Origin: Ottowia beijingensis
GTDB taxonomy: Bacteria; Pseudomonadota; Gammaproteobacteria; Burkholderiales; Burkholderiaceae_C
Assembly (NCBI RefSeq): GCF_013423955.1
Contig: NZ_JACCKX010000001.1
Location: 868,001 to 932,000 of the forward strand
Direction of reading: 5' to 3'
Length of the DNA: 64,000 nt
The notes beneath the pieces are model-generated. The model was not told the DNA's origin and searched no databases. It saw only the letters and a program-made list of their open reading frames with translations. This document shows positions 23,289-64,000 of the stretch, piece after piece. Made by a program: the position numbers and the translations under genes. The stretch's first letter is position 1, and the number at the start of each line of letters is the position of its first letter.

Positions 23289-26142
<2,854 letters not shown>

Positions 26143-48929: not shown

Positions 48930-49163
48930 ATGGCACGCGTGTGCGAAGTCACGGGCAAGAAGCCCATGGTCGGGAACAACGTTTCCCACGCCAACAACAA
49001 AACCAAGCGCCGGTTCCTCCCGAACCTGCAACACCGCCGTTTCTGGGTCGAGAGCGAGAACCGCTGGGTGCGCCTGCGTGTTTCCAGCGCCGCCCTGCGC
49101 CTGATCGACAAGAATGGCATCGACGCCGTGCTCGCCGACATGCGTGCCCGCGGCCAAGCCTGA
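48930..49163 (+). CDS. rpmB: 50S ribosomal protein L28
   Basis: 77 residues, '[20 protein letters not shown]' then '[19 protein letters not shown]', the standard L28 sequence. The ATG at 48930 is internal to a longer open frame that starts at 48858, and is fixed by homology. Followed by rpmG after 23 bases. Confidence 0.97.
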
Positions 49164-49186
49164 ACCCCCGTTAAAGGAGCAGCAAC

Positions 49187-49357
49187 ATGGCCACCAAAGG
49201 CGGACGCGAAAAGATCAAGCTGGAATCCACGGCCGGTACCGGTCACTTCTACACCACCAGCAAGAACAAGAAGACCATGCCCGAGAAAATGTCGATCATG
49301 AAGTTCGACCCCAAGGCTCGCAAGCACGTCGAATACAAGGAAGTCAAGCTGAAGTGA
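49187..49357 (+). CDS. rpmG: 50S ribosomal protein L33
   Basis: 56 residues, '[20 protein letters not shown]' followed by '[20 protein letters not shown]' and '[16 protein letters not shown]'. It lacks the four zinc Cys, i.e. the C-minus form. An AAAGGAG site lies 10 bases upstream. Same operon as rpmB. Confidence 0.97.
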
Positions 49358-49382
49358 TTCAGCAAGGCTGATCCTGACGACC

Positions 49383-49410
49383 AACCCGCTGCCCTTGCAG
49401 CGGGTTTTTT
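49383..49410 (+). terminator. rpmBG rho-independent terminator
   Basis: AACCCGCTG pairs with CAGCGGGTT around a 6-base loop, followed by T6. Confidence 0.88.
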
Positions 49411-49461
49411 CTCCCTGTCGACCTCGCGCCAGTCGCTAGAATCGACGAGCAGTTTCGACGC

Positions 49462-49549
49462 GGAGGTGTGGCAGAGTGGTCGATTGCACCGGTCTTGAAA
49501 ACCGGCAACGGGCAACCGTTCGTGAGTTCGAATCTCACCGCCTCCGCCA
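49462..49549 (+). tRNA. tRNA-Ser(UGA)
   Basis: 88 nt class II tRNA with long variable arm and encoded CCA. The anticodon loop CTTGAAA gives TGA. The acceptor stem pairs GGAGGTG with CACCGCCTCC region bases. Confidence 0.94.
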
Positions 49550-49593
49550 GAGAAAACAGCGCCGGCATTTTGTCGATGCGCAAGAAAAACGGG

Positions 49594-49616
49594 CCGTGAA
49601 GGCCCGTTCTTGTTTT
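49594..49616 (+). terminator. tRNA-Ser terminator
   Basis: ACGGGCC-gtgaa-GGCCCGT with A-rich and T-rich flanks, 45 bases past tRNA-Ser. A near-identical hairpin lies beside tRNA-Asp at 62753-62776. Confidence 0.7.
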
Positions 49617-49718
49617 GACTTTCACAGATCAGATCCACGCCGACAACCGAAGTCTTGTGCTGGCTCGAGCGCAGCCTGCGACCCGATTCCAGACACTGGA
49701 TTATCAGAACCTGAAAAT

Positions 49719-49753
49719 GGAAACGGGTTACGCCATTTCTGGCGTAACCCGTT
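49719..49753. terminator. Strong hairpin left of island B
   Basis: AACGGGTTACGCCA pairs perfectly with TGGCGTAACCCGTT around TTTC. It lies just before the tRNA-Asp 3' fragment on the host side, so it is plausibly the original tRNA-Asp terminator. Confidence 0.7.
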
Positions 49754-49760
49754 GATTTAC

Positions 49761-49776
49761 TTGGCGGAGTGGACGG
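49761..49776. repeat. Left attachment site, 16-bp tRNA-Asp 3' end
   Basis: TTGGCGGAGTGGACGG, identical to 62788-62803 at the CCA end and acceptor/T-stem of tRNA-Asp. A second loosely matching pair, 'gggtgaagtgatggatag' near 49904 and 'gggtaaagtgatgggtag' near 62731, lies inside each end. Between 49777 and 50275 I see no other supported gene. Confidence 0.65.
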
Positions 49777-50275
49777 CCACTCAGGATGCACCTCATACGG
49801 GGTGATGGGGTGCCACATGACGTCAAGCATACCCTGAAAGCTGAACCTCCAGTGCACCAGGCAGTGTCACCAAGGCCCGCGAAATGTCTAGCTGACCGAT
49901 GGGTGAAGTGATGGATAGTCGTGAGTAAGTGGCTGACTCCGGAGCCGCCGTACCACTGCAATATTCAGACCTGCTCAGCTATGTTTTTGGTCCGTGGCGC
50001 TAATCGCAACTCACCACGAAGCCACCACGCAAAGACACATATAGATACATTCTTCCAATTGGCGTCGCCTGAAACGGCGTTTGCAGGTGTGGCCTGCGCA
50101 ATTTCTGCCCCAGCACACAAAAGCTGCGGAGAAATTCCACATGGCGAAATATTTGACCGGTTTTCCGGCTAATCCACCCTCTAATGGCCTCGACTTCGGT
50201 CGGGACAACAGCGCTTTCCCTCCCAATCAGGAGCGACGAACTAGGGATAAGTGTAATAGTTTGAAACAGAGATCG

Positions 50276-50503
50276 ATGGCGCTAGAGCCCCAAGATGGTG
50301 GCTACAAGACATCGCAATCAGCATTGGCCCGACACCTTCGGCTCAAGGAGGTAACAGCCCTAGTTCGAATGTCACCGTCGACAGTTTGGCGGAAGGTCAA
50401 AGATCGATCTTTTGTTCAGCCGATCAAGCTATCGGCGCGAATCACTGTTTGGAGTAGCGCCGAAATCGAACGCTGGCTTGAGGCCAAGGAGGGTGGGCGA
50501 TGA
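50276..50503 (+). CDS. AlpA family transcriptional regulator
   Basis: A 75-residue AlpA/excisionase-like helix-turn-helix protein: 'LRLKEVTALVRMSPSTVWRK' and 'LSARITVWSSAEIERWLEAK' match the family pattern. The frame is open to 50081, but the ATG at 50276 gives the usual size. The stop overlaps an ATG (50500) of the next gene by ATGA. AlpA proteins activate integrase or excision genes in P4-like islands. Confidence 0.85.
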   Translation: MALEPQDGGYKTSQSALARHLRLKEVTALVRMSPSTVWRKVKDRSFVQPIKLSARITVWSSAEIERWLEAKEGGR

Positions 50504-51877
50504 GCGCATTCACCTTTGCCCCCGTGGGACGAACACGATACCGACTATACCGAACGGGCGGTCGGCTACGAGACCTTCGAGTCTCCTTGGGATAAACACG
50601 ACGCTGACTACAGCGAACGGACACGCCAGGACGCCCTCCAGCCTCCTTTGGATGCATATGAGGCCGACGACAGCGAGCGCGGACCGCTGTTGTCGCTGTC
50701 GCTGCGAATCGACCCCGTCAGCAAAGCACTAATTCGCCACATCGACGGCACTCCGCACCCACTTGACGTACAGCATGCTGCGACGTTCGCGAAAGTAACC
50801 CGCGCAGTGCCTGATTGCGGTCGCACCATGCCGGTACCGCCCACGGCGAGGCTGAGGCGTACCTGTGTTCCTTCACAGTTTGGCGAACTGCCGCGCTTGG
50901 AATGGTTGATGGAACCGCTGATTCCACGCAGATCCATAGGGATCATTTTCGGCTCATCCGGCGTCGGTAAGAGCGCGTTCTTGATCGATCTCGGCATTGC
51001 GTTCGCTTCGGGGCGCTTGTGGGCAAACCGATTCGACGTGGTCAAAGGCGCGGTCCTAATTTGCTGTCAAGAGGGTGAGGAAGGAATGCGGACGCGCGCG
51101 TTTATCAGCACGCGCGCGGAAGACCCAGCGGTCAGCGCCAGACTGCACTTCTGTTTTGATGCCCTCAACATAGGGGCCGAGGCCGACATTGATGACCTCG
51201 CCGCCACTATCGTTCGATTGGGTGCGTTTGTGGTCTTCATCGACACCCTGTCCGCCTCGCTAGCCGGGGCATTGGAGGAAAACTCCACCTCCGACATGGC
51301 CAAGATGATCGGACTATTGAGGCGCCTCATCCGGATGACCGGGGTAACCGTGATCTTGATTCACCACACCGGTCACCAAGACGGCCGGGAGCGCGGCGCA
51401 TCCGTGCTGCGCAGAGATGTAGACGTGTCGATCATGTTGACCCGCAAAGGCTCAGAAATCGAGTGGCGCACCGTCAAGGCCAAGGATGGTCCATCGGATA
51501 TCTGCGGTCGTTTTGAGCTTGAGCCTGTTGAGGGATTGGACGCTCAGGGTGTGTGGCAGCAGTCCATCAGCGTCAAACACTGCGATCAGATCGAAAGCGT
51601 GACTTCTGCGCGCCCAACTAAGCGGCTCCTCTCAAGCAACCAAGCGAAGGTGCTGGAAACCGTGAAGACATTGCTCTCGGAGCAGGCGATCAGCGCTTCC
51701 GACAAGGACTCGGATGCGCCCTACGTCGAACGAGAGCGCGCTGTTTCGGCATGCCTGGGTCATTTCCAGCACGCAGCGCAGAAGCACCGTTCATCGCGTG
51801 CGCGGGAGACCCTGCAGGCGCTGGTCGACAACGGCCATCTGACCGACCACGACGATCGCCTTCGCCTCGCCAACTAA
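50500..51877 (+). CDS. RepA-like RecA-fold ATPase with N-terminal tandem repeats (probable +1 frameshift near start)
   Basis: About 458 residues, of the AAA_25/RepA helicase type found beside AlpA in islands. Walker A is 'GIIFGSSGVGKSAFLIDLGI', Walker B 'AFVVFIDTLSASLAGALEEN', and 'VTVILIHHTGHQDGRERGAS' is the conserved HH region. The N-terminus has three units of about 20 residues (WDEHDTDYTER, WDKHDADYSER, LDAYEADDSER). ATG at 50500 overlaps the alpA stop but must drop one C at 50519-50523 to reach this frame; otherwise it starts at TTG 50516. Likely drives island replication. Confidence 0.82.
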
Positions 51878-51934
51878 CTCCTGTTTCTCTTCATTCGCAG
51901 CCGAATGCTGCTTTCTCTTTTTCGAAAGATTCCC

Positions 51935-52252
51935 ATGAAAATCAAATCCTTTTGGATCGTCCGTCGCGCTGCTGCATACCTGAACTACCTTGCAGCGCAA
52001 GATCAAGTTGTTACAGGCGCCGAGTTCGCCCAGATGCTGGGATTAGTCACACCCGACCGGCGATTCGCCGGCATCCGGCGTGCAATCGAAATCCTAAAAC
52101 TCCTTGATTATGATGACCTTCGCAAAAGTCGCCCCAGGCGCGCCGCAATGGTTGTTCAAGAGCGCGGCGCGATGGCGGGATTACCCTACCGCTTCTTTTG
52201 GAAAGACGACATAACGACCATCCAAGAGCGCAATACACGCCACCAAAAATGA
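51935..52252 (+). CDS. Hypothetical protein
   Basis: 105 residues, basic ('IVRRAAAYLNYLAAQDQVVT', 'RRFAGIRRAIEILKLLDYDD'). The pattern suggests a small winged-helix-like DNA-binding protein, but no family is recognised. ATG at 51935. The stop overlaps the next start by ATGA, so the two are coupled. Confidence 0.6.
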   Translation: MKIKSFWIVRRAAAYLNYLAAQDQVVTGAEFAQMLGLVTPDRRFAGIRRAIEILKLLDYDDLRKSRPRRAAMVVQERGAMAGLPYRFFWKDDITTIQERNTRHQK

Positions 52253-52674
52253 TCTGGCACGTCGTGCAATACCCTTATTCATTGAGATGCACCGAGGAGC
52301 AGCGCCGGCACATTGAGTCAGTGCTTAGGATAGACAACGGCACGACGAGATATCGGAGCGAGTTGCCGCGCCGCCAGTGGCGTGAGCAAAAGAACCGCAA
52401 ACCCAGCAAGATGGAAACTTCGATAACCGCGAACTGGCCTACCAGCGCACTTACACGCTCGCACAATGGACTACTGCAAGACATCGCTTCTCTGATGCGC
52501 AAGACCTCCAGCTTGGGTCAGGCCGGACTATCCAGGGATCAGGTAGCTGAGAGCATCATGTACTACATGCCACCCGAATACTCAGTGGAGGAATTGGGCG
52601 AGGACATCGACCACTTGGTGAAAACCGGATGCTTGCGTGAGGTTGATGGCATTCTTACGCTGCCTCTCCATTGA
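52249..52674 (+). CDS. Hypothetical protein
   Basis: 141 residues, coupled to the preceding gene by ATGA. The C-terminal half 'MYYMPPEYSVEELGEDIDHL' then 'VKTGCLREVDGILTLPLH' looks like a helical or winged-helix end. Not recognised. Convergent with the XRE regulator gene, whose stop is 20 bases away. Confidence 0.58.
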   Translation: MIWHVVQYPYSLRCTEEQRRHIESVLRIDNGTTRYRSELPRRQWREQKNRKPSKMETSITANWPTSALTRSHNGLLQDIASLMRKTSSLGQAGLSRDQVAESIMYYMPPEYSVEELGEDIDHLVKTGCLREVDGILTLPLH

Positions 52675-52693
52675 CTGTCACCCGGAACACCTG

Positions 52694-52933
52694 CTAGCGT
52701 GCTCTGCGCGCCAGCACGGCGGCCATGAGGTCGTTGAGCGGCACGTCTAGCGCCTGCGCAAGCAAATGAAGCGCCGTCAACGTCGGTTGATTGGTCGCGA
52801 GTTCGAGCTTGGCCACATAGGTGCGGTTTAGCCCCGCCCTGTGGGCCAACTCCTCTTGCGAGACACCCAACCCTGCGCGCCGCGAGCGAAGCTCGTCCGC
52901 GAACGCAGTAATCAGCGCCTTGTCCCGAATCAT
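52694..52933 (-). CDS. XRE family transcriptional regulator
   Basis: 79 residues, essentially one helix-turn-helix domain: 'LRSRRAGLGVSQEELAHRAG' then 'LNRTYVAKLELATNQPTL'. ATG at 52933 is preferred; the frame is open to 53014. It is divergent from the uracil-DNA glycosylase with under 100 bases between starts, so it probably controls that gene. This compact form resembles control proteins of restriction-modification systems. Confidence 0.85.
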   Translation of the reverse strand: MIRDKALITAFADELRSRRAGLGVSQEELAHRAGLNRTYVAKLELATNQPTLTALHLLAQALDVPLNDLMAAVLARRAR

Positions 52934-53027
52934 CGCCCGGGACTGTCTGCGGCCACCCGAGTTTACGCACCCGCATATGTGATACAAATTTCCCTGCGGC
53001 GCTGTGCTGCGCAAACAGGAGGATCAC

Positions 53028-53687
53028 ATGCTGTCGAGGGACAAACTCTGGAAACTGTCGTCGGGCGCGCGTGCCAATGGTTGGGGGTTCGAGCAGCAAG
53101 ACTTGCCGAACGGCATCAGCGACGCCCAGGTGTTTCCGGAACCTGCGCAGATTTTTCGGGCGCTGGAGTTGGTGAGTCCGGCGCAGGTCAAAACTGTGAT
53201 CGTTGGGCAAGACCCTTATTTCAGCCTTTCGGCGGGTGGCAAGCCGCACGCGACCGGGGTCGCTTTCGCGGTAGCTGGTCAGGACGCACCTTCGTCACTG
53301 CAGAGGATCAAGGCGCACGTTTACCCGAAGGGTCAAGGCAAGAACGACTTGGCGGACTGGGTAGACAGCAAAGGCCTACTACTGCTGAACGCGGGGTTGA
53401 CGGTTCCCGCCACCGGAGGCCGCGAGGCTGCCGGCAAACACCTGCGGCACTGGCGAGAATTCTTCAAGTCGGTCATAAATCAAGCCCACGAGGCGAGTCC
53501 GCGGGCGGTCGTCGTGGCGTGGGGCACCAAAGCCCGAGATGCCTCCGCCAGCGCCCTTGGTATCGACTGGCAGAGCCCTCCACCGTGGTTCGATTGGACT
53601 TACCATCCGGTCGCCGCCAAGTCCGGGCCGCACAGCTTTGCCAACTTCTGGACCACGCCGGCTGGCAAAGCCTTGGTTATGCGGTAA
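53028..53687 (+). CDS. Uracil-DNA glycosylase family 1-like protein
   Basis: 219 residues of the Ung fold. Motif A is 'VIVGQDPYFSLSAGGKPHAT' (D62; GQDPYF instead of GQDPYH), 'GVAFAV' supplies the stacking Phe (F80), 'GLLLLNAGLTVPATGGREAA' has the pocket Asn (N121), and motif B is 'WTYHPVAAKSG' (H193; HPVA instead of HPSP). All catalytic residues are kept, so it probably excises uracil or a related modified base. An AGGAGG site precedes the ATG. It is an island gene beside a XRE regulator, not the chromosomal repair ung, so a role in defence or base-modification control is possible. Confidence 0.88.
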   Translation: MLSRDKLWKLSSGARANGWGFEQQDLPNGISDAQVFPEPAQIFRALELVSPAQVKTVIVGQDPYFSLSAGGKPHATGVAFAVAGQDAPSSLQRIKAHVYPKGQGKNDLADWVDSKGLLLLNAGLTVPATGGREAAGKHLRHWREFFKSVINQAHEASPRAVVVAWGTKARDASASALGIDWQSPPPWFDWTYHPVAAKSGPHSFANFWTTPAGKALVMR

Positions 53688-54046
53688 CACCGTCGCCTGA
53701 CTGAGCAGCGCGCGGCCCCTTCCGCGCCCCATTTCTCTACCTGTTGCCGTGGCCTAAAGGCCATGTCCGGCAAGAAAACTCGCGCCTTGCTTGTCCCGCT
53801 TCGCACGCGGGATGGTGCACGCATCGCCGAATCAGACGCTGAAAATCCTGATGAAAATCAATGGGTTACAACCCATTGTCATTAATAGCTATTGATTTTG
53901 TAGCAAACAATCGAGCAAAGAAGGGGAGAGGAAGACAGCGCCTTATTTGGCGCGGGTTTCCGGCCGGTTAGTGGTCACTTCACCATTTTTTCGATTTCGG
54001 CGAACCATCACGTCAGCGCCGCTAATGGCGTTTGAAGGGAACATGA

Positions 54047-55314
54047 ATGAAGGCAAAGGAAATGAGCGCGCTGGCCGTGGCCAGCATCAAGAGTCGGGGT
54101 ATTCACTTCGTCGGTGGCGTCACCGGCCTGGCCCTGAATGTCACGAAGTACGGTTCGCGCAGTTGGGTCATGCGCTTTCAGATCAAGGGGAAACGTCGCG
54201 ACATGGGGTTGGGTCCCTACCCATCGGTCACGCTGGCCCAAGCGCGTGAATCGGCGCGTGCCGCGCGGGAAGTGCTGCGACAGGGCGTAGACCCGGTAGA
54301 ACACGCCCGGGCGGCACGCCAGCGTCTGATCGTGGAGCGGAGACGGCCGTCGCGTTCGCCGACGCGGCGACGCACTACATCGCCACGCATGAACATGGGT
54401 GGAGGAACGCCAAGCACGCCCAGCAGTGGCGCAACACCATCGAGACCTATGCCAACCCGGTCATCGGCAAGGTGCCGCTGCGTGACATCGACGTGGCCAT
54501 GGTGCGGCGCATTCTGGAGCCAATCTGGACCACCAAGAACGAGACCGCCAGTCGCGTCCGGGGACGCATCGAGTCAATCATCGACTGGGGCATCACCATG
54601 GGCTACCGCACCACGACCAATCCGGCACGCTGGAAGGGGCATCTGGAGCATTTGCTGGCGCAACCTTCCAAGGTGGCCCGGCGCACCCGTCAACCCGCCC
54701 TGCCCTATGCCGACATGCCGGCGTTCATGCAGGCGCTGCGCAAGCAGCACAACACGTCGGCTCGGGCGCTGGAGTTCCTGATCCTGACTGGCGTTCGGTC
54801 CGGCGAGGTGCGCAACGCCACATGGAGCGAGTTCGACCTGGACAAGGCGGTGTGGACGATTCCAGCGGAGCGCATGAAGGGCGGCAGGGAGCACCGGGTG
54901 CCGCTGTCCGAGCAGGCGTTGAGGCTGGTGCGGGCGCAGCAGGAGGTGTCTTTCTGCTCCTTCGTATTTCCGAGTCCGAATCGACCACGCGACCCGGAGG
55001 CGGATGGCACAGCGCTGTCCGACATGGCGTTGACCGCCGTGATGCGGCGCATGGCGTTGAAGCAGAAGGCCGTACCGCATGGGTTTCGTTCAACCTTCCG
55101 TGATTGGGTGAGCGAGACCACCACGCATTCGAACGAGGTGGCCGAAATGGCGCTGGCCCACAGCATCCGCAACAAGGTCGAGGCGGCGTATCGGCGCGGT
55201 GACCTGTTCGAGAAGCGGCGCCAACTGATGCAGGAATGGGCGGATTTTGTACTGCGTCAGCAGCCCTCACCCAACGTGTTTCCAATCAGCGAGGGACTCC
55301 GACTTGCCGCCTGA
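54047..55314 (+). CDS. int: P4-type tyrosine integrase (one frameshift)
   Basis: About 422 residues. N-terminal DUF4102-type domain ('GIHFVGGVTGLALNVTKYGS', 'KRRDMGLGPYPSVTLAQARE'), then core-binding and catalytic domains. Catalytic residues: R in 'TGVRSGEVRNATWSEFDLD', H and R in 'PHGFRSTFRDWVSETT', H in 'MALAHSIRN' and Y in 'VEAAYRRGD'. One G is missing at about 54343 in 'VERETAVAFADAA'. The preceding 360 bases (53688-54046) contain no supported gene. Probably the recombinase of island B or of an element nested in it. Confidence 0.9.
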
Positions 55315-55332
55315 ACTGGAGAGCAGACGATC

Positions 55333-55956
55333 ATGAGATTTCAGAATCCAGCCAACGGGCATATCGAAGAATTTGGCGAGGCCACTTGGCTGTGGGTGCT
55401 GGTGGGCGGTCCGTTCTACCTCGCCTACAAGCAAATCTGGCTGCACGCAGTGATAGCGGCGGTGTTGTCCCTGTTCACTGCCGGACTGTCTTGGGTGCTG
55501 CTGTACCCGCTGATCATCAAGTGGGTGATACGCAGCCATTACGCCAAGCTGGGATGGAAAGAAATCACGGAAGGCAAAGCAGTAGTAAGAAGTTCGTCCG
55601 GGGCGCCTAGCACCGATGTGCGCATCCTTTCTACGCCCCCGGACGGCGACTATCGCGTGCTGGGCGAGATCATGGTCAAGCTGACCCGATGGACGCCGCT
55701 GGAGCGCAAGTACGGCCGGGAGGACGTGGATCAGCGCCTGCGGGAGAAAGCCTTGGCCTTGGGTGCCAATGCCATCGTGAACGTCCGCTACGAACAGAAG
55801 GATGAATCGTGGACCAACGCCGGCTCTATCGAGGGTAGAGGCTTGGCAGTCGTGAGTGAATCCGACACCACGACCTGTCCGTTCTGCGCGGAACGCATCA
55901 AACGCGCCGCCACGCGCTGCAAGCACTGCGGGTCAGACATTCCGAAGGCTGCGTGA
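55333..55956 (+). CDS. Membrane protein with YbjQ-like domain and C-terminal zinc ribbon
   Basis: 207 residues. Two hydrophobic helices at about 18-70 ('WLWVLVGGPFYLAYKQIW', 'AVLSLFTAGLSWVLLYPLII'), then a region like the heavy-metal-binding YbjQ fold ('DVRILSTPPDGDYRVLGEI', 'LREKALALGANAIVNVRYEQ'), ending in a zinc ribbon CPFC...CKHC. 18 bases downstream of the integrase. Function unknown. Confidence 0.7.
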   Translation: MRFQNPANGHIEEFGEATWLWVLVGGPFYLAYKQIWLHAVIAAVLSLFTAGLSWVLLYPLIIKWVIRSHYAKLGWKEITEGKAVVRSSSGAPSTDVRILSTPPDGDYRVLGEIMVKLTRWTPLERKYGREDVDQRLREKALALGANAIVNVRYEQKDESWTNAGSIEGRGLAVVSESDTTTCPFCAERIKRAATRCKHCGSDIPKAA

Positions 55957-56019
55957 CCGCCGGTCTTGCAACTGCGCATTCTTCATCAGAAATCAAACCT
56001 CACCTGCAGGAGCCTCGCC

Positions 56020-56169
56020 ATGGACGACGACATTGGCCTTGGTGAACTACTGATCGACAACCTCTTGGGCCTGATCGGTGCATTGATACTGATCTGGGCA
56101 TTCTTGTTCGTTTGCGTGGGCCTGCACCGCGTCATCACGGGATCACAAGATGAGCACCACGCCGATTGA
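56020..56169 (+). CDS. Small membrane protein
   Basis: 49 residues with a single helix 'LIGALILIWAFLFVCVGLHR' and acidic ends. ATG at 56020 follows GCAGGAG. It overlaps the next ORF. Unknown role. Confidence 0.5.
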   Translation: MDDDIGLGELLIDNLLGLIGALILIWAFLFVCVGLHRVITGSQDEHHAD

Positions 56170-56431
56170 TTGCAGCACCACCGTGAAGGTGGTTTACCTG
56201 CGCTACGCCGACCCCGGCTTCATACCGCGTTACCGGCAGTGGATCAAGACGATGACGTCACTGGTGCCACCCGAGGCATTGCGCGTGGAGATCGTGACGA
56301 TGGATCAGCCGGAGCCACCACTTTCTGAGGTAGTCGCTGGACTCGAGGCATTCGATTATCTGTTGTTCGATCCCGTCTTGACGGCGCCCAAACAACATGA
56401 CCGGAAGTCCTCGGAGGAAAGAGTGTCATGA
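56150..56431 (+). CDS. Hypothetical protein
   Basis: 93 residues, starting within the preceding small membrane protein gene. Contains 'VKVVYLRYADPGFIPRYRQW' and 'LEAFDYLLFDPVLTAPKQ'. No family recognised. The stop overlaps the ATG of the DnaB-like fragment. Confidence 0.5.
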   Translation: MSTTPIDCSTTVKVVYLRYADPGFIPRYRQWIKTMTSLVPPEALRVEIVTMDQPEPPLSEVVAGLEAFDYLLFDPVLTAPKQHDRKSSEERVS

Positions 56432-56556
56432 CCAACAACCAAATCATCGTCGCCAAGCAACGCAACGGGCCGACAGGAACCACCAAGTTGGCCTACGTCC
56501 AGCAGTTCACACGGTTCGAGAATTTGGCAGCCGGACGCTACACAGATGACTTCTAG
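56428..56556 (+). pseudogene. DnaB helicase C-terminal tail fragment
   Basis: A 42-codon ORF whose 'NQIIVAKQRNGPTGTTKLAY' then 'VQQFTRFENLA' matches the last segment of replicative helicase DnaB. The rest of DnaB is absent. It is either a relic of a phage-type dnaB or a short peptide kept after deletion. The ATG overlaps the preceding stop. Confidence 0.6.
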
Positions 56557-56583
56557 CCTGTACCAAGTTGCCCTTCCCCGGTT

Positions 56584-56629
56584 CCCCGCCCGCCCGGTCT
56601 TTCTTTTAGAAGACCGGGCGGGCGGGGGA
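56584..56629. terminator. Strong GC-rich hairpin
   Basis: CCCCGCCCGCCCGGTCTT and AGACCGGGCGGGCGGGG pair over 17-18 bases around a short T-rich loop. It separates the gene run above from the secreted protein gene below and likely terminates in at least one direction. Confidence 0.7.
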
Positions 56630-56673
56630 CCGGGGTAGGCGTGCTCAGGTGAATTCACCGAAAGGAAATAGCT

Positions 56674-57003
56674 ATGAATTCAAGAGCAAAAGCGATCACC
56701 ACTTTGGTCGCCGGTATCACCCTGAGCTTTGCTGCGGTGGCTCAGACGCCGAAGTTCAAGCGGGGCGAAGACTACGGTTCGATCCGGGTCAAGCTGCTAC
56801 AACAGGGCTGGAAGCCATTGATCCTGCCGGACTCCGACGAATGCATGGAGGACGACACCCGGTGCCAAGGTAGGCCCGAAATGCAATGGTGTTCGGGTAC
56901 GGGGCTGGCGGGCTGCCAGTTCAACTGGGTGAAGAACGGCAAGTGGCTCAGCATCTGCACCATGGGCGAAGAAAAGGCGAGCTTCAGGAGCTATTGCCGG
57001 TGA
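56674..57003 (+). CDS. Small secreted cysteine-containing protein
   Basis: 109 residues. Signal peptide 'MNSRAKAITTLVAGITLSFA' with cleavage near AVA-Q. The mature part has six Cys ('DECMEDDTRCQGRPEMQWCS', 'GCQFNW', 'SICTMGE', 'SYCR'), suggesting disulfides in the periplasm. An in-frame 'MNSPKG' lies 25 bases upstream in another frame. Not recognised. Confidence 0.65.
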   Translation: MNSRAKAITTLVAGITLSFAAVAQTPKFKRGEDYGSIRVKLLQQGWKPLILPDSDECMEDDTRCQGRPEMQWCSGTGLAGCQFNWVKNGKWLSICTMGEEKASFRSYCR

Positions 57004-57036
57004 TCGACTGCCGATTGCTCAAGGTGGTAGCGAGGA

Positions 57037-57300
57037 GTGCCTTCTTGGTACTTCTTTGGTCCCTGGAACAGGCTGGATGGGGGAGCCATGGCGACCGGAT
57101 CAAGCTGCCACTCGATCAAGGACTGGGACGCTCGGCATCGCTGCCTAGCCGAGGTACGGGGCAACTACTCATACTGCTACGCGATCCGCGACCATGACGG
57201 GCGCAAGCTATGCTTGGCGAAGACGAAACGACAGCGGGGGTACTGCCACTCGATCCGGGACGAATCGGAGCGAAAACGCTGCTTGGTGATCGTGCATTAG
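57037..57300 (+). CDS. Small protein with three 23-residue Cys repeats
   Basis: Open from GTG 57037; ATG at 57088 gives 70 residues. Three units with exact 23-residue period: CHSIKDWDARHRCL, CYAIRDHDGRKLCL, CHSIRDESERKRCL, i.e. C-x2-I-[KR]-D-x3-R-x2-C-L. Paired Cys 12 apart suggest disulfide-stapled helices or a metal site. No signal peptide from either start. Family not recognised. Confidence 0.6.
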   Translation: MPSWYFFGPWNRLDGGAMATGSSCHSIKDWDARHRCLAEVRGNYSYCYAIRDHDGRKLCLAKTKRQRGYCHSIRDESERKRCLVIVH

Positions 57301-57432
57301 AGCCCCTGCGCGCCTATTCACTAAGGGGTTCTTGACGGCAGCTTCATAGCCATTCCGGGTCATCGGATCGGGAGTGTACTTCGCTATCGCGAGTCAGGTG
57401 TTAGATTCCTGCCCGGAGAGAGAGAACTACAA

Positions 57433-57666
57433 GTGATATACGTCGATGACGCCGAGGTCATAAAGCACGGTTATGCGTGGTTTCACCTCGTGGCGGATAG
57501 CATACAGGAACTGCACGAATTCGCGGCTCGCATCGGGCTACCCGCCAGCGCCTTCCATCGCGGTGCGCGGCACCCCACTACGATGTTACAGCTAACCAAC
57601 GCTTGCGCGCACTTCAATACGGAGCTACTGCGATCTCTGCTCGGTACGCAGTGCAAGTCTGCCTGA
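57433..57666 (+). CDS. DUF4031-like small protein
   Basis: 77 residues from GTG. 'IYVDDAEVIKHGYAWFHLVA' followed by 'DSIQELHEFAARIGLPASAF' fits DUF4031, a small family of unknown function often found on phages and mobile elements. A GGAGAG site precedes it. It ends 18 bases before the TS-fold gene, so it is probably the first gene of that operon. Confidence 0.72.
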   Translation: MIYVDDAEVIKHGYAWFHLVADSIQELHEFAARIGLPASAFHRGARHPTTMLQLTNACAHFNTELLRSLLGTQCKSA

Positions 57667-57684
57667 AATCAGCCTCGTCGGCGC

Positions 57685-58752
57685 GTGCCATCGAAGCGGA
57701 TTCTCCTCAGTTCTGCCTCTTTGCCTAACCCAGCGAGGCAAGGCGTGTACATCGCAGCTGACTCCCTCGACGACCTGCTGTTAAAGGTATACAAGCAAAT
57801 TCTCGAGCGCGGCATCACGATAAAGCCGTCTAAGGGCGATGCGCGGGAAATCAGCGGCATTCTGCTAAAGCTCTCGGCGCCACGGGCCCGTCTCAGCCGG
57901 TCAGAGTCACGGGGCCTCCTCTTCAGTTGCCTTGGCGAACTACTGTGGATACTTGCCGGTAGCGATCGGCTGGACTTCATACAGCACTATATCCCTGGCT
58001 ATGACGAATTCTCCGACGACCAGAAAACCATCTACGGGGCATATGGACCCCGCCTTTTCGGCAAAGTGCCAAATGATCAAGTTCCACGTGTCATCCAGTT
58101 GTTGAAGGACAAGCGCGATTCTAGGCAAGCCGTTTTGCAATTGTTTGACCGCACTGACACGCTTACATTCCATAAGGATGTTCCATGCACCTGCACGCTG
58201 CAGTTTATGGTGCGTGATAGTCGGCTGCACATGTTGACGTCTATGCGTTCCAATGACGCTTGGCTTGGTTTGCCTCATGATGTCTTCACCTTCACCATGA
58301 TTCAGGAGCTCGTTGCACGGTCAGTGGGTATAGAGCTTGGCGAATACAAGCACGCCGTAGGCAGCTTGCACCTCTACAACAAGCACCAAGATAAAGCCCT
58401 CCGGTTCGTGAGCGAGGGCTGGCAGACGCGGCGCCCAATGCCTCCTATGCCCAAGGGCGACCCGTGGGCCTCGGTGAAAAGCCTCGTTGCTTTCGAGAAG
58501 AAGGTGCGAACTGGCCACGGTGCCATGCCAACGCCACCGATAGACCCGTATTGGGAAGACTTGGCCACGTTGCTGTCCATCCACAAGGCTTCTCGCGTCC
58601 CGAACAACCAGCCAGAAATACGGCGTCTGAAGCGGCGAATCCACGACGACGTTTACTCGACTTACATCAAGAGGCACGGCAAACTCCTTTCCGAGAAAGA
58701 TCAGCTGTCTATATTCAACGGTTCGACAGCCCCGATCAAGGAACCCGCATGA
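57685..58752 (+). CDS. Thymidylate synthase-fold pyrimidine C5 (hydroxy)methyltransferase, possibly dCMP-specific
   Basis: 355 residues from a GTG. The TS fold is evident: 'FSCLGELLWILAGSDRLDFI', 'IYGAYGPRLFG', nucleophile C168 in 'DVPCTCTLQFMV', 'MRSNDAWLGLPHDVFTFTMI' and 'AVGSLHLYNKHQDKAL'. Where thymidylate synthases have LGLPFN (Asn selecting dUMP), this protein has LGLPHD; Asp199 at that site marks dCMP/CMP hydroxymethylases and the known Asn-to-Asp TS variants. The His after the catalytic Cys is Thr. It is about 90 residues longer than E. coli TS, with a C-terminal extension. Coupled by ATGA to the next gene. Likely makes a modified pyrimidine nucleotide. Confidence 0.8.
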   Translation: MPSKRILLSSASLPNPARQGVYIAADSLDDLLLKVYKQILERGITIKPSKGDAREISGILLKLSAPRARLSRSESRGLLFSCLGELLWILAGSDRLDFIQHYIPGYDEFSDDQKTIYGAYGPRLFGKVPNDQVPRVIQLLKDKRDSRQAVLQLFDRTDTLTFHKDVPCTCTLQFMVRDSRLHMLTSMRSNDAWLGLPHDVFTFTMIQELVARSVGIELGEYKHAVGSLHLYNKHQDKALRFVSEGWQTRRPMPPMPKGDPWASVKSLVAFEKKVRTGHGAMPTPPIDPYWEDLATLLSIHKASRVPNNQPEIRRLKRRIHDDVYSTYIKRHGKLLSEKDQLSIFNGSTAPIKEPA

Positions 58753-58976
58753 ACGGCCCTGAGAAGCAGCTTCGAAGAGAAGCGCTCGAAGCACAACTGA
58801 TGAAGTTCCACAAGGAAAAGATACCACTGACTGGCATCGTCCCCGTAGAGAACATGCTGTCCTTCATCGAGCAACTCATCGACAGTCTTCAGCGCGTCGA
58901 GTTTGTGCGTAAGGTACAGACTAGGCCCATTAGCCTATTGCGTGCCGACCCAAAGAGCCCCTATTCGACCCTATAA
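58749..58976 (+). CDS. Small helical protein of the TS-fold cassette
   Basis: 75 residues, ATG overlapping the TS-fold gene stop. Charged and helical ('EKQLRREALEAQLMKFHKEK', 'ENMLSFIEQLIDSLQRVEFV'). No recognised domain. Translational coupling suggests it is a subunit or partner of the TS-fold enzyme. Confidence 0.65.
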   Translation: MNGPEKQLRREALEAQLMKFHKEKIPLTGIVPVENMLSFIEQLIDSLQRVEFVRKVQTRPISLLRADPKSPYSTL

Positions 58977-58984
58977 GGGCCGCA

Positions 58985-59671
58985 ATGCTCAGAGCGTCGG
59001 ACGGACATCCGGAAGAGGCGTTCTGGCTAGTATTCCTGGCCACGCATTGCGGCCGGAACCTACGCACCGGATGGCAGCTCGCTGGCGAGTTATACGGCGC
59101 ATATGAGAACACGCTTTGGAACTGGTCGCGAGTTGCCACTGACCCGACTGCTTTTGGCGAATGGCTGGAGGATAATCGCGCCAACTTCAAAGGAAAGTTC
59201 GGCAATCACCGCAAGTATGAGTCGCTCAAGCAGGGCGCTCGCGGCACCGGTGTCGTCGTGAGGACCTACGTTGAATGGGTCAAAGCAAACGGCTCGCACG
59301 GCCAGATGATCGCCACTGCATTAGCCCAGGCGAAGGGCCATCCTCGCCAAGCATTCGCACTGTTGTATGACTCGATGGATGCGGTTGTGAGCTTCGGGCG
59401 CACTGGGCGCTTCGATTACCTCACAATGCTTTCGAAGCTCGGCCTCGCCGCGATTGATGCCAACTCGACGTACATGAACGAGGCCACTGGCCCCAAGAAG
59501 GGCGCGCGCTTGCTATTTGACGGACAAATCGACTCGAATACCGGTGCCAAGACCCTCGAAGCGCGTGTTGCGGCCTTAGAGAGGCACTTAGGCGTCGGCA
59601 TGCAGGTGATGGAAGACGCCATGTGCAACTGGCAGAAAAGCCCCGGGAGGTATCTGCCCTTCCGCGGCTAG
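58985..59671 (+). CDS. Protein resembling alpha-glutamyl/putrescinyl-thymine pyrophosphorylase (clade 3-like)
   Basis: 228 residues; AAGGG lies six bases before the ATG. The pattern 'EAFWLVFLATHCGRNLRTGW', 'WNWSRVATDP', 'VVSFGRTGRFDYLTMLSKLG' and 'YMNEATGPKKGARLLFDG' resembles the glycosylase-fold family that, in phages with hypermodified thymine, installs alpha-glutamyl or putrescinyl groups on activated hydroxymethyl-uracil in DNA. Assignment is from memory of the family pattern and needs a profile search. Last gene of the cassette; it ends three bases from the convergent ImmA/IrrE gene. Confidence 0.55.
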   Translation: MLRASDGHPEEAFWLVFLATHCGRNLRTGWQLAGELYGAYENTLWNWSRVATDPTAFGEWLEDNRANFKGKFGNHRKYESLKQGARGTGVVVRTYVEWVKANGSHGQMIATALAQAKGHPRQAFALLYDSMDAVVSFGRTGRFDYLTMLSKLGLAAIDANSTYMNEATGPKKGARLLFDGQIDSNTGAKTLEARVAALERHLGVGMQVMEDAMCNWQKSPGRYLPFRG

Positions 59672-59674
59672 GGA

Positions 59675-60747
59675 TCAGCCCCAGGTGTATCGCTTCTTTA
59701 GGAAGTTGAGCTTCTCCCGAGGCACCAAGCCTCGGTGTTGAAGCTGCCCAACCACGATGCCGGGGACACTGAAAGATTACGCGCAAACCTCATGATGGTC
59801 TTGTAATCATGAGGAAGTGCGCTCAGCGCAGCCTCTTGCGACGGCGGGATCAGAATCTTCGCAGCGAAGTCATTCGCTTCCCTCTCTTCCGACTCATCGA
59901 GGTGTCGATTCTCTGACCACTCTAGGAAAAGACGATTCTCGTGTAGAACCAGATGTCCGGCCTCGTGGAAGAAAGTGAACCAGAAGCTGTCGTCACGCAG
60001 ATACCGCGCACTGAGCTGAACGATGGCTTGACCATTTCTGATCCGTGTTGCGCCGCTTGCCGGGCAGCCTTTAGGGGTCCGAACAATGACAACCGCGACT
60101 CCACACTCGGCACACCTACGCTGAAGCTGAGGGATGAAATCAGCCGGCTTTTCGATCCTCGTCAGCCGCCTCAACTCCGGCAAGATTCGCTCGAAGTTAA
60201 TGCGGGACCATTGCGCGGTGCTGATCCGGCTCGCGAGTCGCTCACCCTGCCGAAGCCAAGCAGCGGCAGAAGCCCCTTGTCTCGCGAAGACCGGCGACGT
60301 CCTATACGCCGTCAGGCCGGCGTGTTGAGAAAGCCATCTATCTCGCCACTCATCGACGCTCGATACCCCGAAAAAGGCGAAAGCCATGTCGAGTTTGTCC
60401 GCACCCGTGCTAGCGGCGTCTAACCAGCCGAACTTTGCCATGTCGGCTAGCGGAAGGCTGGACACCCACGCACGGGCATCGTCGTAAATCGTCTGTAACG
60501 AATGGCGGTACTGCGCCTCCCGCGCAAGCCAGAAGCGTGAGGTAGCCCCGACAAAGATTGCAAGCCTTTCAGCTCTCGCTTTAGTAATTGGTAAGTCCCC
60601 ATCGAGCACCCGAGCGAGCTCGCTCTCAGCAACCCCGAGGGCGTTAGCAACTATCGCTTGTGTAATCCCCGTCCGTTGAGCGAGCTCTCGAATGGTCTCT
60701 CCCGGAGGAGACGCCCATGCTGGACAGAATTCAGCGGTGACGCTCAC
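59675..60747 (-). CDS. XRE family regulator with ImmA/IrrE metallopeptidase domain (one frameshift)
   Basis: About 357 residues. N-terminal helix-turn-helix ('LAQRTGITQAIVANALGVAE'), a middle region, and a C-terminal ImmA/IrrE-type zinc peptidase with 'FTFFHEAGHLVLHENRLFLE' (HExxH) and 'EREANDFAAKILIP'. A missing base at about 59767 alters the tail; restored it reads 'GIVVGQLQHRGLVPREKLNF'. The GTG start overlaps the end of the interrupted toxin gene upstream, giving a toxin-first operon. Such proteins act as antitoxins or as repressors cleaved or relieved by stress. Confidence 0.85.
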
Positions 60748-60916
60748 TTGCTTCCCCGATGTGGACTACTTTGAGCCTCGTAACTTGAGCCCAATCAATC
60801 GTTCCACCACTCATTGGCGCGCTTTGTTGATTCACATTGCATAAGAGACTAAGTCCTTCGCTCAACTGGAACCGTAGCATTGTGTGTTCCTGCGCGCAAT
60901 TGTCGATTTCGAGCCC

Positions 60917-62319
60917 TGTCAGCAGTAAATGAGTTGTCCGGTTCGTAGCAAGTAATCTGTCCGGTTTATGGAGGAGCGATGCAACACGCCCCCATGAGCC
61001 GGGCCCGCTACATGCAGGAGAACCGGAAGATGAGATTCACAGAAGCCTTGGAAGGCTGGACACAAGGGCGACTGACCCAGGCCGAAGCGGCCTTGCTGCT
61101 GGGGCAGTGCGAACGCAGCTTTCGCCGTCACATTGAACGCTACCAAGCCGACGGCCTGGACGGGCTGTTGGACAAGCGACTCAGCCAGATCTCCAAACGC
61201 CGTGCCAGCGCAGCGGAGGTGGACCACGTGGTGGCACTCTACAAAAGTGGGTTTGCCGGCTGGAACGTGGCGCACTTTCACACCAAGTACAAAGCCGAGT
61301 GTGGCGGTGCACGCAGCTACAGCTGGCTCAAGAGCGTGCTGCAGGGCGCTGGGGTGGTCAAGGCCTCCAAACGACGGGGCACCCACCGCATCAAGCGCGA
61401 ACGAGCCCCGCTGGCGGGCATGCTCATGCACCAGGACGCCAGCACCCACCGCTGGGTGCCCGCCCACGTCTGGGACCTGGTGGTGACCCTGGATGACGCC
61501 ACCGGCGAGCACACCAGCATGTTCTTCTGTCACCAGGAGGGCACAGCGTCGAGCTTTCACGGCATCGGCCAGACGATCGCACGCTATGGCCTCTTTGCCA
61601 GCCTGTACACCGACCGGGGCAGTCACTACTTCACCACGCCCGAGGCAGGCGGCAAGGTTGACAAGGCGCACCTGACTGAGGTCGGGCGCGCGCTCAAGCA
61701 ACTTGGTATCGAGCACATTGCGGCCTACTCGCCCGAGGCGCGTGGCAGAAGCGAGCGGGCGTTCCAGACCCATCAGGGGCGTCTGCCGCAGGAGTTGGCC
61801 CGTGCCGGGATCACCGATATGGACAACGCCAACCGCTACCTGGAGGAGGTCTACCGAGCCAGCCACAACGCCGAATTTGGTGTGTCCAGCACGTTGCCGG
61901 GCACGGCCTATGTGCCCTTCATCAGCGGCAGCCTGCCCGACATCTTGTGTGAGCAACACGAGCGCACCGTGGGCAATGACAACTGCGTGGCGTTTGCAGG
62001 TCTGAGTCTGCAGATTGCGGCCGATGAGTTCCGCTACCACTACGTGCGCACCCGGGTGCGCGTGCACCGCTATGTGGACGCCACGCTGGCGATCTTTCAT
62101 GGCCCTCGCAGGCTGGCAAGCTTCGATGCCCAAGGCAAACCAACGCGGGACAAGGAGGTGCAGCGGCTGGCCGCATGAGCTCGCCTTGACCCATCGCGTG
62201 CTGGCAGCCAAGCCGCTTCGGGCTGCGCCCTTCGCAGCTTGGCTGCCAGCACCATCACATCAAGTCAAAGCGGACAATCTACTTGCTGCCAAACCGGACA
62301 GTTCTATTTACTGCTGACA
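60917..62319 (+). mobile_element. IS1202/ISNCY-type insertion sequence
   Basis: 1,403 bp. The terminal inverted repeats begin TGTCAGCAGTAAAT at both ends and stay alike for about 50 bp; each end carries two TGTCCGGTT-type motifs. A 17-bp target duplication TTGTCGATTTCGAGCCC flanks it (60900-60916 and 62320-62336). Long target duplications of this size occur in some IS1202-family groups. Perfect TSD and intact transposase point to a recent, active copy. Confidence 0.92.
60979..62178 (+). CDS. IS1202/ISNCY family DDE transposase
   Basis: 399 residues. N-terminal helix-turn-helix ('WTQGRLTQAEAALLLGQCER', 'SFRRHIERYQADGLDGLLDK') and a DDE core: D in 'AGMLMHQDASTHRWVPAH', D in 'ASLYTDRGSHYFTTPE', E in 'PEARGRSERAFQTHQGRLPQ'. 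AGGAG precedes the ATG. It occupies almost the whole IS. Confidence 0.92.
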   Translation: MQHAPMSRARYMQENRKMRFTEALEGWTQGRLTQAEAALLLGQCERSFRRHIERYQADGLDGLLDKRLSQISKRRASAAEVDHVVALYKSGFAGWNVAHFHTKYKAECGGARSYSWLKSVLQGAGVVKASKRRGTHRIKRERAPLAGMLMHQDASTHRWVPAHVWDLVVTLDDATGEHTSMFFCHQEGTASSFHGIGQTIARYGLFASLYTDRGSHYFTTPEAGGKVDKAHLTEVGRALKQLGIEHIAAYSPEARGRSERAFQTHQGRLPQELARAGITDMDNANRYLEEVYRASHNAEFGVSSTLPGTAYVPFISGSLPDILCEQHERTVGNDNCVAFAGLSLQIAADEFRYHYVRTRVRVHRYVDATLAIFHGPRRLASFDAQGKPTRDKEVQRLAA

Positions 62320-62752
62320 TTGTCGATTTCGAGCCCCATATCAAACAGTTCTGCGACAGTTTCAACTGCGTTCATGTCTGCCAGCACTCGGCGCAGCGCT
62401 TTACTTCCTAGCTCACCAAGCTCCCGCTTCGCCCTCGCCGGACTTTCACAGGTGGCGCGCAGTTCCCTCGTCTGAAAGGCAATCTCAAGCGGCATAGAGC
62501 CAGAATTGTCAGCGAAAGACCGAGGGGCGTCTCAATTCCTACCTGGATGAGCATAAGTTTGTCAGCTTGCGACAATTACTGTCAATTTCCGAGAACCGCA
62601 TGGCTGCAACCAGCCTGTGGTTCACGTTGACTTAAGGGCCGGCAAAACTCCGGCTGCGCAGCAAACACCAGCACAACCCATCAGACGCAGTGACTCACGA
62701 CGCGTCACAACGTGCCATCCTCGCCGACGGGTAAAGTGATGGGTAGAAAGAA

Positions 62753-62776
62753 AAAACGGGCCGCGAAGGCCCGTTT
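62753..62776. terminator. tRNA-Asp terminator
   Basis: ACGGGCC-gcgaa-GGCCCGT with A6 before and TTTT after, 13 bases beyond the CCA end of tRNA-Asp. Between the split toxin gene (62495) and here I see no other feature. Confidence 0.8.
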
Positions 62777-62788
62777 TCCTTTGTCGAT

Positions 62789-62865
62789 TGGCGGAGTGGA
62801 CGGGACTCGAACCCGCGACCCCCGGCGTGACAGGCCGGTATTCTAACCGACTGAACTACCACTCC
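62789..62865 (-). tRNA. tRNA-Asp(GUC)
   Basis: 77 nt with encoded CCA; acceptor GGAGTGG, anticodon loop CTGTCAC with anticodon GTC, T-arm GCGGG-TTCGAGT-CCCGT. Its 3' 15-16 bases are repeated at 49761-49776, marking it as the target of island B. Confidence 0.95.
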
Positions 62866-62912
62866 GCGTCGGCAGCTGCGTTGTGCTCTTGCGAGCCAAG
62901 TGCAGCCAAACT

Positions 62913-62988
62913 TGGCGACCCTACGGGGATTCGAACCCCGGTACCCACCGTGAAAGGGTGGTGTCCTAGGCCTCTAGACGATAGGGTC
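62913..62988 (-). tRNA. tRNA-Glu(UUC)
   Basis: 76 nt with encoded CCA; anticodon loop CTTTCAC gives TTC. Part of a minus-strand Ala-Glu-Asp tRNA cluster. Confidence 0.95.
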
Positions 62989-63015
62989 AAAACCTAGAAT
63001 CTTCTTCGACAACCT

Positions 63016-63091
<76 letters not shown>

Positions 63092-63140
63092 GTTCGAGTT
63101 TCCCCGTGTGGGTGTCGAGCCTTGCATTATATGCTGGAAA

Positions 63141-64000
63141 TCAAACGTTCTGCAAGCGTGACAAAACTATTTCGCGCCGGTGCAACGCCAGCATGGCGTC
63201 GACCGAGGGGTCTGCGGCGTGCCCATGACCAGCACGCGCACCGGCATGGCCAGTTGCGGCATCTTCAGGCCGTGCTCGGCCAGCGTGTCCTTGATGGCGG
63301 CGGTGATGGCAGGTGTGGTCCAGTCGGCGGCGGCCAGCCTGTCGCGCAGTGCCGCGACGGCCGGCTTCACGGCGTCGGTGACGTGCTTGGCCAGGTCGTC
63401 GGCGCTGGGCGTGACGTCCGCGTAATAAGCCTGCGCCCAGTCGGCCAGGGCCACAGTGGTGTCGCAGCGGTCCTTGAACAAACCGCAGATGGCGGGCAGG
63501 CGCTCGTCGGCGGCGATGCCGCGCTTCTGCAGCTGCTCGGCAACCAGCGGCGCCAGCGCATCGTCGTCCATGGCCTTCAGGTGCTGGGCGTTGACCCAGC
63601 GCAGCTTGGCCTCGTCGAACTGGGCGGCGCTGCGGCCGAGGTGATCGAGGTCGAACCACTCCAGGAACTGCACGCGGCTGAAGATCTCGTCGTCGCCGTG
63701 GCTCCAGCCCAGGCGCGCCAGGTAGTTGACCATGGCGTCGGGCAGGTAGCCCTCGTCGCGGTATTGCGTGACAGGCTTGGCGCCGTTGCGCTTGCTCATC
63801 TTCTCGCCCCGCTCGTTCAGCACGGTGGGCAGGTGCGCGTACACCGGCGGCTCGTGGCCGAGGGCGCGGAAGATGTTGATCTGGCGCGGCGTGTTGTTCA
63901 CGTGGTCGTCGCCGCGGATCACGTGGGTGATCTTCATGTCGATGTCGTCGACCACGACGCAGAAGTTGTAGGTGGGCGTGCCATCGGGCCGGGCGATGAC
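63141..64000 (-). CDS. gltX: Glutamate--tRNA ligase, C-terminal part (runs off the window; one frameshift)
   Basis: The visible part starts at the catalytic core ('[20 protein letters not shown]', '[20 protein letters not shown]') with the KMSKS motif '[14 protein letters not shown]', then the helical anticodon-binding domain, ending '[20 protein letters not shown]'. A base is missing at about 63215 before 'SVDAMLAL'. The 5' end lies beyond position 64000. It is co-directional with the downstream tRNA cluster. Confidence 0.95.

Follow-up and report, generated by a model that had tools for sequence, protein, structure and literature searches.

Enzymes of the thymidylate synthase (TS) superfamily that hydroxymethylate cytosine nucleotides have been described in antibiotic synthesis (MilA, a CMP 5-hydroxymethylase) and in phage DNA (the dCMP hydroxymethylase of T4, T4 dCH). 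In MilA, Asp186 is reported to contact the cytosine and Ala176 and Lys133 the ribose, the deoxy enzymes having Ser and Arg instead (PMC5175136), while the T4 dCH work describes an acidic residue three positions before the Cys as the mark of hydroxymethylases (PMC6400193). Related chemistry is met in defence: Brig1, a glycosylase resembling the uracil-DNA glycosylase (UDG) superfamily, is reported to protect against T-even phages and to excise glucosyl-hydroxymethylcytosine (PMC11078745). Another phage defence system, PD-lambda-2, is described as comprising a HigB-like protein A, a HigA-peptidase protein B, toxic alone and rescued by A, and a P4-antitoxin-like protein C (PMC9519451). The DefensePredictor study (2026, PMC13092281) validated TS and 5hmdU-kinase domains as parts of other defence systems; it also counts aGPT-Pplase among the defence domains that it predicted and did not validate, and the abbreviations explained for its Fig. 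6F include HTH and UDG. Here we analyse a locus of Ottowia beijingensis in a stretch of 64,000 nucleotides (the window; contig NZ_JACCKX010000001.1, positions 868,001 to 932,000), in which a TS-superfamily gene is followed by a gene of the aGPT-Pplase3/ADDT family (PPlase) and faced by a convergent gene, IMM, encoding an XRE-type helix-turn-helix and an ImmA/IrrE peptidase domain, with a small gene, SMI, beside it. Our reading, with about an even chance of being right, is that this is a mobile conflict module based on nucleotides and, most likely, directed against phages, the defensive role being what we infer.

The TS-like enzyme is a predicted dCMP 5-hydroxymethylase

An original prediction, made from the letters of the window and a list of its open reading frames (ORFs), had named a TS-fold enzyme and a DUF4031-like gene in front of it, and Pfam bore out both identities (Thymidylat_synt, 2.4e-26; PF13223, 5.9e-15 for a 77-aa ORF, over profile positions 1-45 of 76). 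MilA is the closest solved structure to the TS family, with a profile E of 5.7e-70 vs 2e-27 for the next enzyme in PDB, and it is also the best PDB match of the window's own protein (6.3e-47). The family has 110 members of 240 aa or more, two loci with shorter fragments having been omitted; among them, the catalytic Cys, the Asp at the cytosine position and the Ser of the sugar pocket occur in all 110 and the Arg in 106 (Lys in the other 4), and 97 have Asp or Glu three residues before the Cys. The protein of the window carries every signature of a dCMP hydroxymethylase: the Asp, the Ser plus Arg, and the acidic residue three before the Cys. The catalytic Cys, the cytosine Asp and the acidic residue are thus shared with MilA and T4 dCH. 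The sugar pocket, with Ser and Arg, is that of T4 dCH, whereas MilA has Ala and Lys, and the setting is a bacterial mobile module rather than antibiotic synthesis or phage DNA.

The enzyme is predicted, with strong support from its sequence, to convert dCMP to 5-hydroxymethyl-dCMP. We considered an ordinary thymidylate synthase and rejected it, since Asp, and not Asn, occupies the base-specificity position in 110/110 proteins. The window's protein falls under all NCBIfam equivalog cut-offs, and a further TS-like gene is present in its genome (28% identity). The expectation of a modified pyrimidine made through a TS-fold enzyme can be kept, with the substrate probably being dCMP and not dUMP or thymine.

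PPlase is a relative of phage amino acid:DNA transferases

PPlase reads in two frames in the window, as a 75-aa and a 228-aa ORF. The 228-aa ORF, originally likened to the pyrophosphorylases, does fall in the family named, as shown by its matches to PF18746 (2.7e-81, positions 51-279, 273.5 bits vs a cut-off of 25) and PF18724, ADDT (2.1e-74, 250.6 bits vs a cut-off of 26.2). The 75-aa ORF matches PF18746 at positions 5-38 (8e-5, under the curated cut-off). Because the profile of the relatives runs across both frames (the 75-aa ORF's frame carries 3-65, that of the 228-aa ORF 60-308), the two ORFs are, on alignment, the two ends of one protein of ~305 aa. PPlase is a single ORF in all but three of the 114 loci described below (the window, L008 and L057), and the 75-aa ORF as a separate gene was rejected; its ATGA overlap with the TS gene is real, and what it encodes is the N-terminal end of PPlase. 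The name aGPT-Pplase reportedly goes back, in all likelihood, to Iyer 2013.

For structural comparison we took a homologue that shares 71% identity with the window's part, used its AlphaFold model (pLDDT 96.2) and ranked Foldseek's 1000 best PDB chains by VIA-align. The glycinyltransferase PaMx11 gp46 (PUGT) came first (Z 10.7, 221 aligned, rmsd 4.3), followed by 8-oxoguanine glycosylases of the helix-hairpin-helix (HhH) fold (Z 9.3 and lower); DUF2419, an HhH-fold protein solved with queuosine-5'-monophosphate, reached Z 9.0. Past rank 26 the Z drops from 5.9 to 3.3, but Z scores like those of the best matches are within reach of helical folds through arrangement alone. Plain Foldseek gave no PDB match with E < 0.5, and searches of PDB sequences with PPlase profiles gave chance-level matches only; among viral models the top Foldseek match is an amino acid:DNA transferase (2.5e-4). 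At the level of sequence, PUGT matches PF18724 (1.6e-27), and a PPlase profile aligned by hhalign to ten phage homologues gave E 6.9e-5 and a probability of 63%, with a C-terminal Q..E...C.W motif common to both.

PPlase is thus, as judged from the model, of one family and fold with the phage amino acid:DNA transferases, although its chemistry may differ. With PUGT and the M6 homologue it shares the Pfam model PF18724, the HhH-glycosylase-like fold and the C-terminal motif. It departs from the phage systems in the enzyme encoded upstream, which is of the cytosine type and not the uracil type, in the rarity of the 5hmdU kinase, in an Asp that an alignment of 63% probability places opposite the invariant phage Lys, and in its PHROG, which is not that of PUGT. 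A lysine-type glycosylase active site found no support in PPlase, with Asp at that position in a weak alignment.

The gene set is conserved across ten phyla

We collected 114 loci with PPlase relatives: 80 from genomes (the best 80 of 207 on genome contigs), 25 viral (IMG/VR), 7 from plasmids (of 8 matching records among 72,556), the window and L003. Genes were found by ORF calling and with HMM profiles built from the same 114 loci, so that PPlase is present in 114/114 by selection; the set holds near-copies, five of which were dropped before tree building. TS was found in 112 loci, IMM in 112, SMI in 107, a UDG-like gene in 39 and DUF4031 in 28. The loci in which TS was not found are L003 (a 3.8-kb stretch) and L077, and IMM was not found in L028 and L095, both of which end soon after PPlase. 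Of the other neighbour families, the most frequent looks by eye like a serine recombinase and occurs in 10/113 loci; integrase-like neighbours, likewise identified by eye, occur in 7/113. Chance grouping is excluded because TS stands on the PPlase stretch in 112/114 against 10/113 for this commonest unrelated family.

In 55 loci the arrangement consists exactly of TS and PPlase, with IMM and SMI next to them in the opposite orientation. Comamonas (L044) and Variovorax (L045) are examples with an intact module. The UDG-like gene stands between TS and PPlase in 19 further loci and DUF4031 in front in 12, the remainder being variants, broken or cut; SMI and IMM are inverted in L027, for instance, and DUF4031 and the UDG-like gene follow PPlase in L082. 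Measured in 103 loci (9 were left out by name and 2 had no IMM), the stop codons of PPlase and IMM are separated by a median of 1 nt, with overlap in 45 loci. The four co-directional ORFs first described in the window are all present (Table 1), and their neighbourhood upholds the pairing of TS with PPlase, though not the four-gene order: the 75-aa ORF is no gene, and a strict order with DUF4031 was rejected with 28/114. That gene list was also incomplete, omitting the conserved companions IMM, which is convergent, and SMI. We still see a compact cassette predicted to modify bases or nucleotides, on DNA that looks foreign and is probably mobile, with a different membership from the one named; that it serves against phages or marks DNA, as first suggested, is a hypothesis.

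The genome loci in the tree span nine phyla (several from metagenome bins), and a Leptospira plasmid raises the number to ten. On this tree of 109 rows the UDG-like gene requires at least 8 changes and DUF4031 6. Signs of mobility are the 8 plasmid records, the 25 IMG/VR loci and the recombinase-like neighbours seen by eye. Less biased samples gave PF18746 in 2/300 genomes of the order and 4/398 of the phylum, the window's own being counted in both, and two of the three new loci of the phylum sample have TS, IMM and SMI. A DNA-level search of E. coli genomes gave no match. The 228-aa part had no protein match in 50,697 phage records, and the one UDG-fold protein searched had none among phages either.

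IMM and SMI, a putative toxin-antitoxin-like pair

IMM matches Peptidase_M78 (Pfam, 9.2e-10) and, in PADLOC, PD-Lambda-2_B (1.4e-21; 1.4e-23 for the IMM of L006), with weaker matches to RmrA (1.2e-11) and capP (1.1e-9); a match to the HigA model (9.8e-9) lies under that model's cut-off. A HExxH-type motif is present in 111/112 members of the family. SMI, which stands directly upstream of IMM in the relatives, matches a PHROG annotated 'toxin of TA system' (3.2e-4). Its position, this match and a non-significant top PDB match suggest that SMI may be the counterpart of the HigB-like A of PD-lambda-2, its identity as HigB being weak. The likeness to PD-lambda-2 lies in an XRE plus ImmA/IrrE protein with a small gene directly upstream; the differences are the convergent TS-PPlase operon on the other side of IMM and the weakly HigB-like character of the small gene. 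For PD-lambda-2 C, PADLOC gave no match among the TS, PPlase, DUF4031, UDG-fold and SMI proteins, the presence of a C model in the library and the genes beyond SMI not having been checked. The 75-aa part gave a chance-level PADLOC match to DpdA (0.045).

We also looked for IMM relatives in 274 genomes of the class, the window's own included (E <= 1e-20). They occurred in 20/274 genomes, at 21 loci, of which 19 have SMI and 3 have PPlase (the window's own, L143 and L144), on stretches of 2.4-4.1 kb in which a PPlase farther away would be missed. With SMI at 19/21 and PPlase at 3/21 of these loci, the SMI/IMM pair seems to be a free-standing unit joined by the TS-PPlase operon. In L150 and L153, pairs lacking PPlase adjoin ORFs that by eye resemble DNA methyltransferases.

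An optional partner has a UDG fold

The UDG-like partner, a protein of 268 aa found in 39/114 loci and absent from the window's module, received no credible Pfam name, and its profile gave chance-level matches only against PDB sequences. Its model (pLDDT 93.1) has a UDG fold: all 46 PDB Foldseek matches at E <= 0.001 belong to the UDG superfamily, the best being TDG (1.8e-6), and VIA-align gave Z 14.2 against a family 4 UDG. PPlase and this protein as members of one family were rejected (hhalign probability 1.6). Likened by fold, the partner resembles Brig1, with modified cytosine as its likely target; unlike Brig1, it belongs to a module predicted to make its own hydroxymethylcytosine nucleotide. 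The window holds a second glycosylase, a 227-aa UDG-family protein at 53004-53687 (+) with a UNG-like GQDPY motif (PF03167, 1.5e-5), located in a low-GC stretch ~4 kb upstream of the cassette.

The locus in the window

The features of the locus are listed in Table 1. The TS gene probably starts at 57745, which alignment favours because the relatives begin there. The DUF4031 gene is broken: the frame of 57382-57663 covers positions 2-49 of the module profile, that of 57501-57725 positions 43-90. SMI lies in two pieces on either side of an insertion sequence (IS) with 14-bp perfect terminal inverted repeats, flanking 18-nt direct repeats (60899-60916 / 62319-62336) and, read by eye, a 399-aa transposase-like ORF (60979-62178, +). 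The window copy as a whole is probably not working, because the IS interrupts SMI.

Table 1. Coordinates of the module and its interruption in the window
Feature	Position	Strand	Remarks
DUF4031 gene, optional module member, two frames	57433..57728	+	First part is the listed 77-aa ORF 57433-57666; PF13223
TS-superfamily enzyme, predicted dCMP 5-hydroxymethylase	57685..58752	+	MilA best PDB match; signature residues; start probably GTG 57745, not GTG 57685
PPlase, aGPT-Pplase3/ADDT-family protein, two frames	58749..59671	+	75-aa ORF 58749-58976 and 228-aa ORF 58985-59671; PF18746, PF18724
IMM, XRE-type HTH plus ImmA/IrrE (Peptidase_M78)	59698..60747	-	HEAGH motif; convergent with PPlase
SMI, C-terminal piece (small, weakly HigB-like gene)	60731..60916	-	SMI profile 54-103 of 103, 4.3e-14
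Insertion sequence within SMI	60917..62319	.	Terminal inverted repeats, flanking direct repeats, transposase-like ORF (transposase read by eye)
SMI, N-terminal piece	62319..62495	-	SMI profile 1-50 of 103, 4.8e-20

Other genes of the window are frame-broken as well. A tRNA-synthetase gene (PF00133; valS by reading) is split into overlapping ORFs in different frames (23468-24562 / 24433-26142, +), and an integrase-like gene (54047-55314) also reads, by eye, in two frames. Because these genes too are broken, the frame breaks in PPlase and DUF4031 are likely assembly indels, with real mutations as the alternative. The integrase-like gene, which we take for a tyrosine integrase, lies in the low-GC stretch (50081-55314, about 57-62%) together with what we take to be an AlpA-like ORF and a RepA-like ATPase, a combination reminiscent of a P4-type satellite or integrative element. 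Just upstream of DUF4031, an 87-aa ORF (57037-57300, +) contains two imperfect copies of a 19-nt repeat, spaced by 138 nt, encoding a repeated CHSI-K/R-D unit. Long direct repeats (>= 17 nt) marking island ends were not found within 49000-63500.

Discussion

In our reading the module probably serves defence or addiction. In the mechanism that we envisage, the TS-superfamily enzyme would hydroxymethylate C5 of dCMP, the step for which the sequence speaks strongly, and the ADDT/aGPT-Pplase3 protein would act on the resulting hydroxymethylcytosine, as nucleotide or in DNA, either adding a group or cleaving the base, a chemistry that we infer. In one third of the modules the UDG-fold glycosylase would excise the altered base. 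The XRE-ImmA protein and its small partner, likened to the B/A pair of PD-lambda-2, would combine the roles of a sensor, a switch and an addiction pair. Once an invader enters, either the altered cytosine nucleotide would mark or poison DNA in active replication, or the pair would halt growth. A more ambitious proposal, which we put forward as an unlikely one, is that the module represents an unnamed class of immune modules in which host-made 5-hydroxymethyl-dCMP is turned, by a transferase-like enzyme and with no phage kinase, into a cytosine that is lethal or carries a mark and that a UDG-fold protein could excise, hypermodification chemistry thus serving as a weapon behind a HigBA-ImmA-like gate.

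Several results weigh against the reading as an anti-phage conflict module. The 5hmdU-kinase family PF18723 was found in 1/32 genomes (that of the window plus those carrying 31 of the 80 genome loci) and not in the window's own; with the phage kinase absent from 31/32 genomes, the reading does not explain how the hydroxymethyl group would be activated. In the alignment of 63% probability, the invariant Lys of the ten phage relatives (K150 of PUGT), which we presume to be catalytic, stands opposite a nearly invariant Asp in PPlase, and hhalign of PPlase with PUGT alone gave a probability of 4.1. IMM matches RmrA and capP too, so PD-lambda-2 is not its sole kin. As for SMI, its top PDB match, Killer protein, is non-significant (E 0.19), hhalign with one RelE/ParE-family toxin gave a probability of 9.4, and Pfam searches of 31 members gave no meaningful match; PADLOC gave none for TS, the 228-aa part, the UDG-fold protein and four SMI. 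Finally L138, the most divergent PPlase of the phylum sample, has no TS, IMM or SMI within its 3.8 kb.

The kinase result also means that the phage pathway of TS-fold enzyme and pyrophosphorylase, on which the original prediction had leaned, cannot be transferred unchanged. The sole carrier of PF18723 is the Larkinella genome of L043 (L125; 1.7e-96).

The module may instead maintain the plasmids and islands that carry it, with SMI/IMM as toxin and antitoxin, TS-PPlase as a second, metabolic toxin, and phages not the target. We consider this unlikely, although its occurrence on plasmids, the recombinase- or integrase-like neighbours of some loci, the tail-to-tail compactness of PPlase and IMM and the toxicity of PD-lambda-2B, rescued by A (PMC9519451), would all suit it. 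It has to face the IMM relatives outside the window, mostly with SMI, which adjoin PPlase at 2/20 loci (on short stretches), so that addiction needs no TS or PPlase, and also the window itself, in which IMM is open while SMI is interrupted, a state that a strongly toxic IMM would hardly permit unless silent.

Quite unlikely, in our estimate, is that the (hyper)modified cytosine belongs in the DNA of the island or its host, for restriction evasion or as an epigenetic mark. The phage relatives of PPlase (PUGT and the ADDT family) are DNA-hypermodification enzymes, as this would have it, but the recurrent module genes include no nucleotide kinase, the hypermodification kinase is as rare as stated above, the 228-aa part has no match in the phage records, and such DNA should be prone to attack by the UDG-fold glycosylase that 39 loci co-encode.

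We think it very unlikely that the product is a small-molecule antimetabolite, PPlase splitting hydroxymethyl-dCMP to free 5-hydroxymethylcytosine or a derivative, a pyrimidine poison, as MilA and the N-glycosidase MilB do in mildiomycin synthesis. MilB is reported to free 5-hydroxymethylcytosine from hydroxymethyl-CMP (PMC4081090). Both the rank of MilA as the closest solved enzyme to the module's TS and the place of DUF2419 with queuosine-5'-monophosphate among the best structural matches of PPlase (Z 9.0) are in line with such a route. Against it, the Ser and Arg of the sugar pocket indicate dCMP and not CMP, PPlase belongs to the same Pfam family as the transferases, and the fold of MilB differs from that of PPlase.

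It is highly improbable that these are simply phage or metabolic genes in decay, with a surplus thymidylate synthase among neighbours unrelated to it: the broken window copy (IS in SMI, frame breaks) and the other TS-like gene of the genome would fit, but conservation of the gene set over 114 loci and 10 phyla, the invariant active-site residues and the Asp in place of the Asn of thymidylate synthase contradict it.

The module has the same domain types as the DefensePredictor systems, aGPT-Pplase being among those given there as unvalidated, and it may be one of the eight systems illustrated in that study, the aGPT-Pplase system of Fig. 6F (PMC13092281). The novelty of our finding is partial, because aGPT-Pplase is already listed there as a predicted defence domain; the literature searched, at the level of titles and abstract openings, held no named system with the TS-PPlase-ImmA arrangement. 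If the module works as an anti-phage conflict module in the way proposed, it would bring nucleotide chemistry, DNA glycosylases and toxin-antitoxin defence together in a single unit that occurs on plasmids and islands and in ten phyla, and it offers a precise, testable substrate (dCMP to 5-hydroxymethyl-dCMP) for a family whose name comes from the thymine chemistry of phages.

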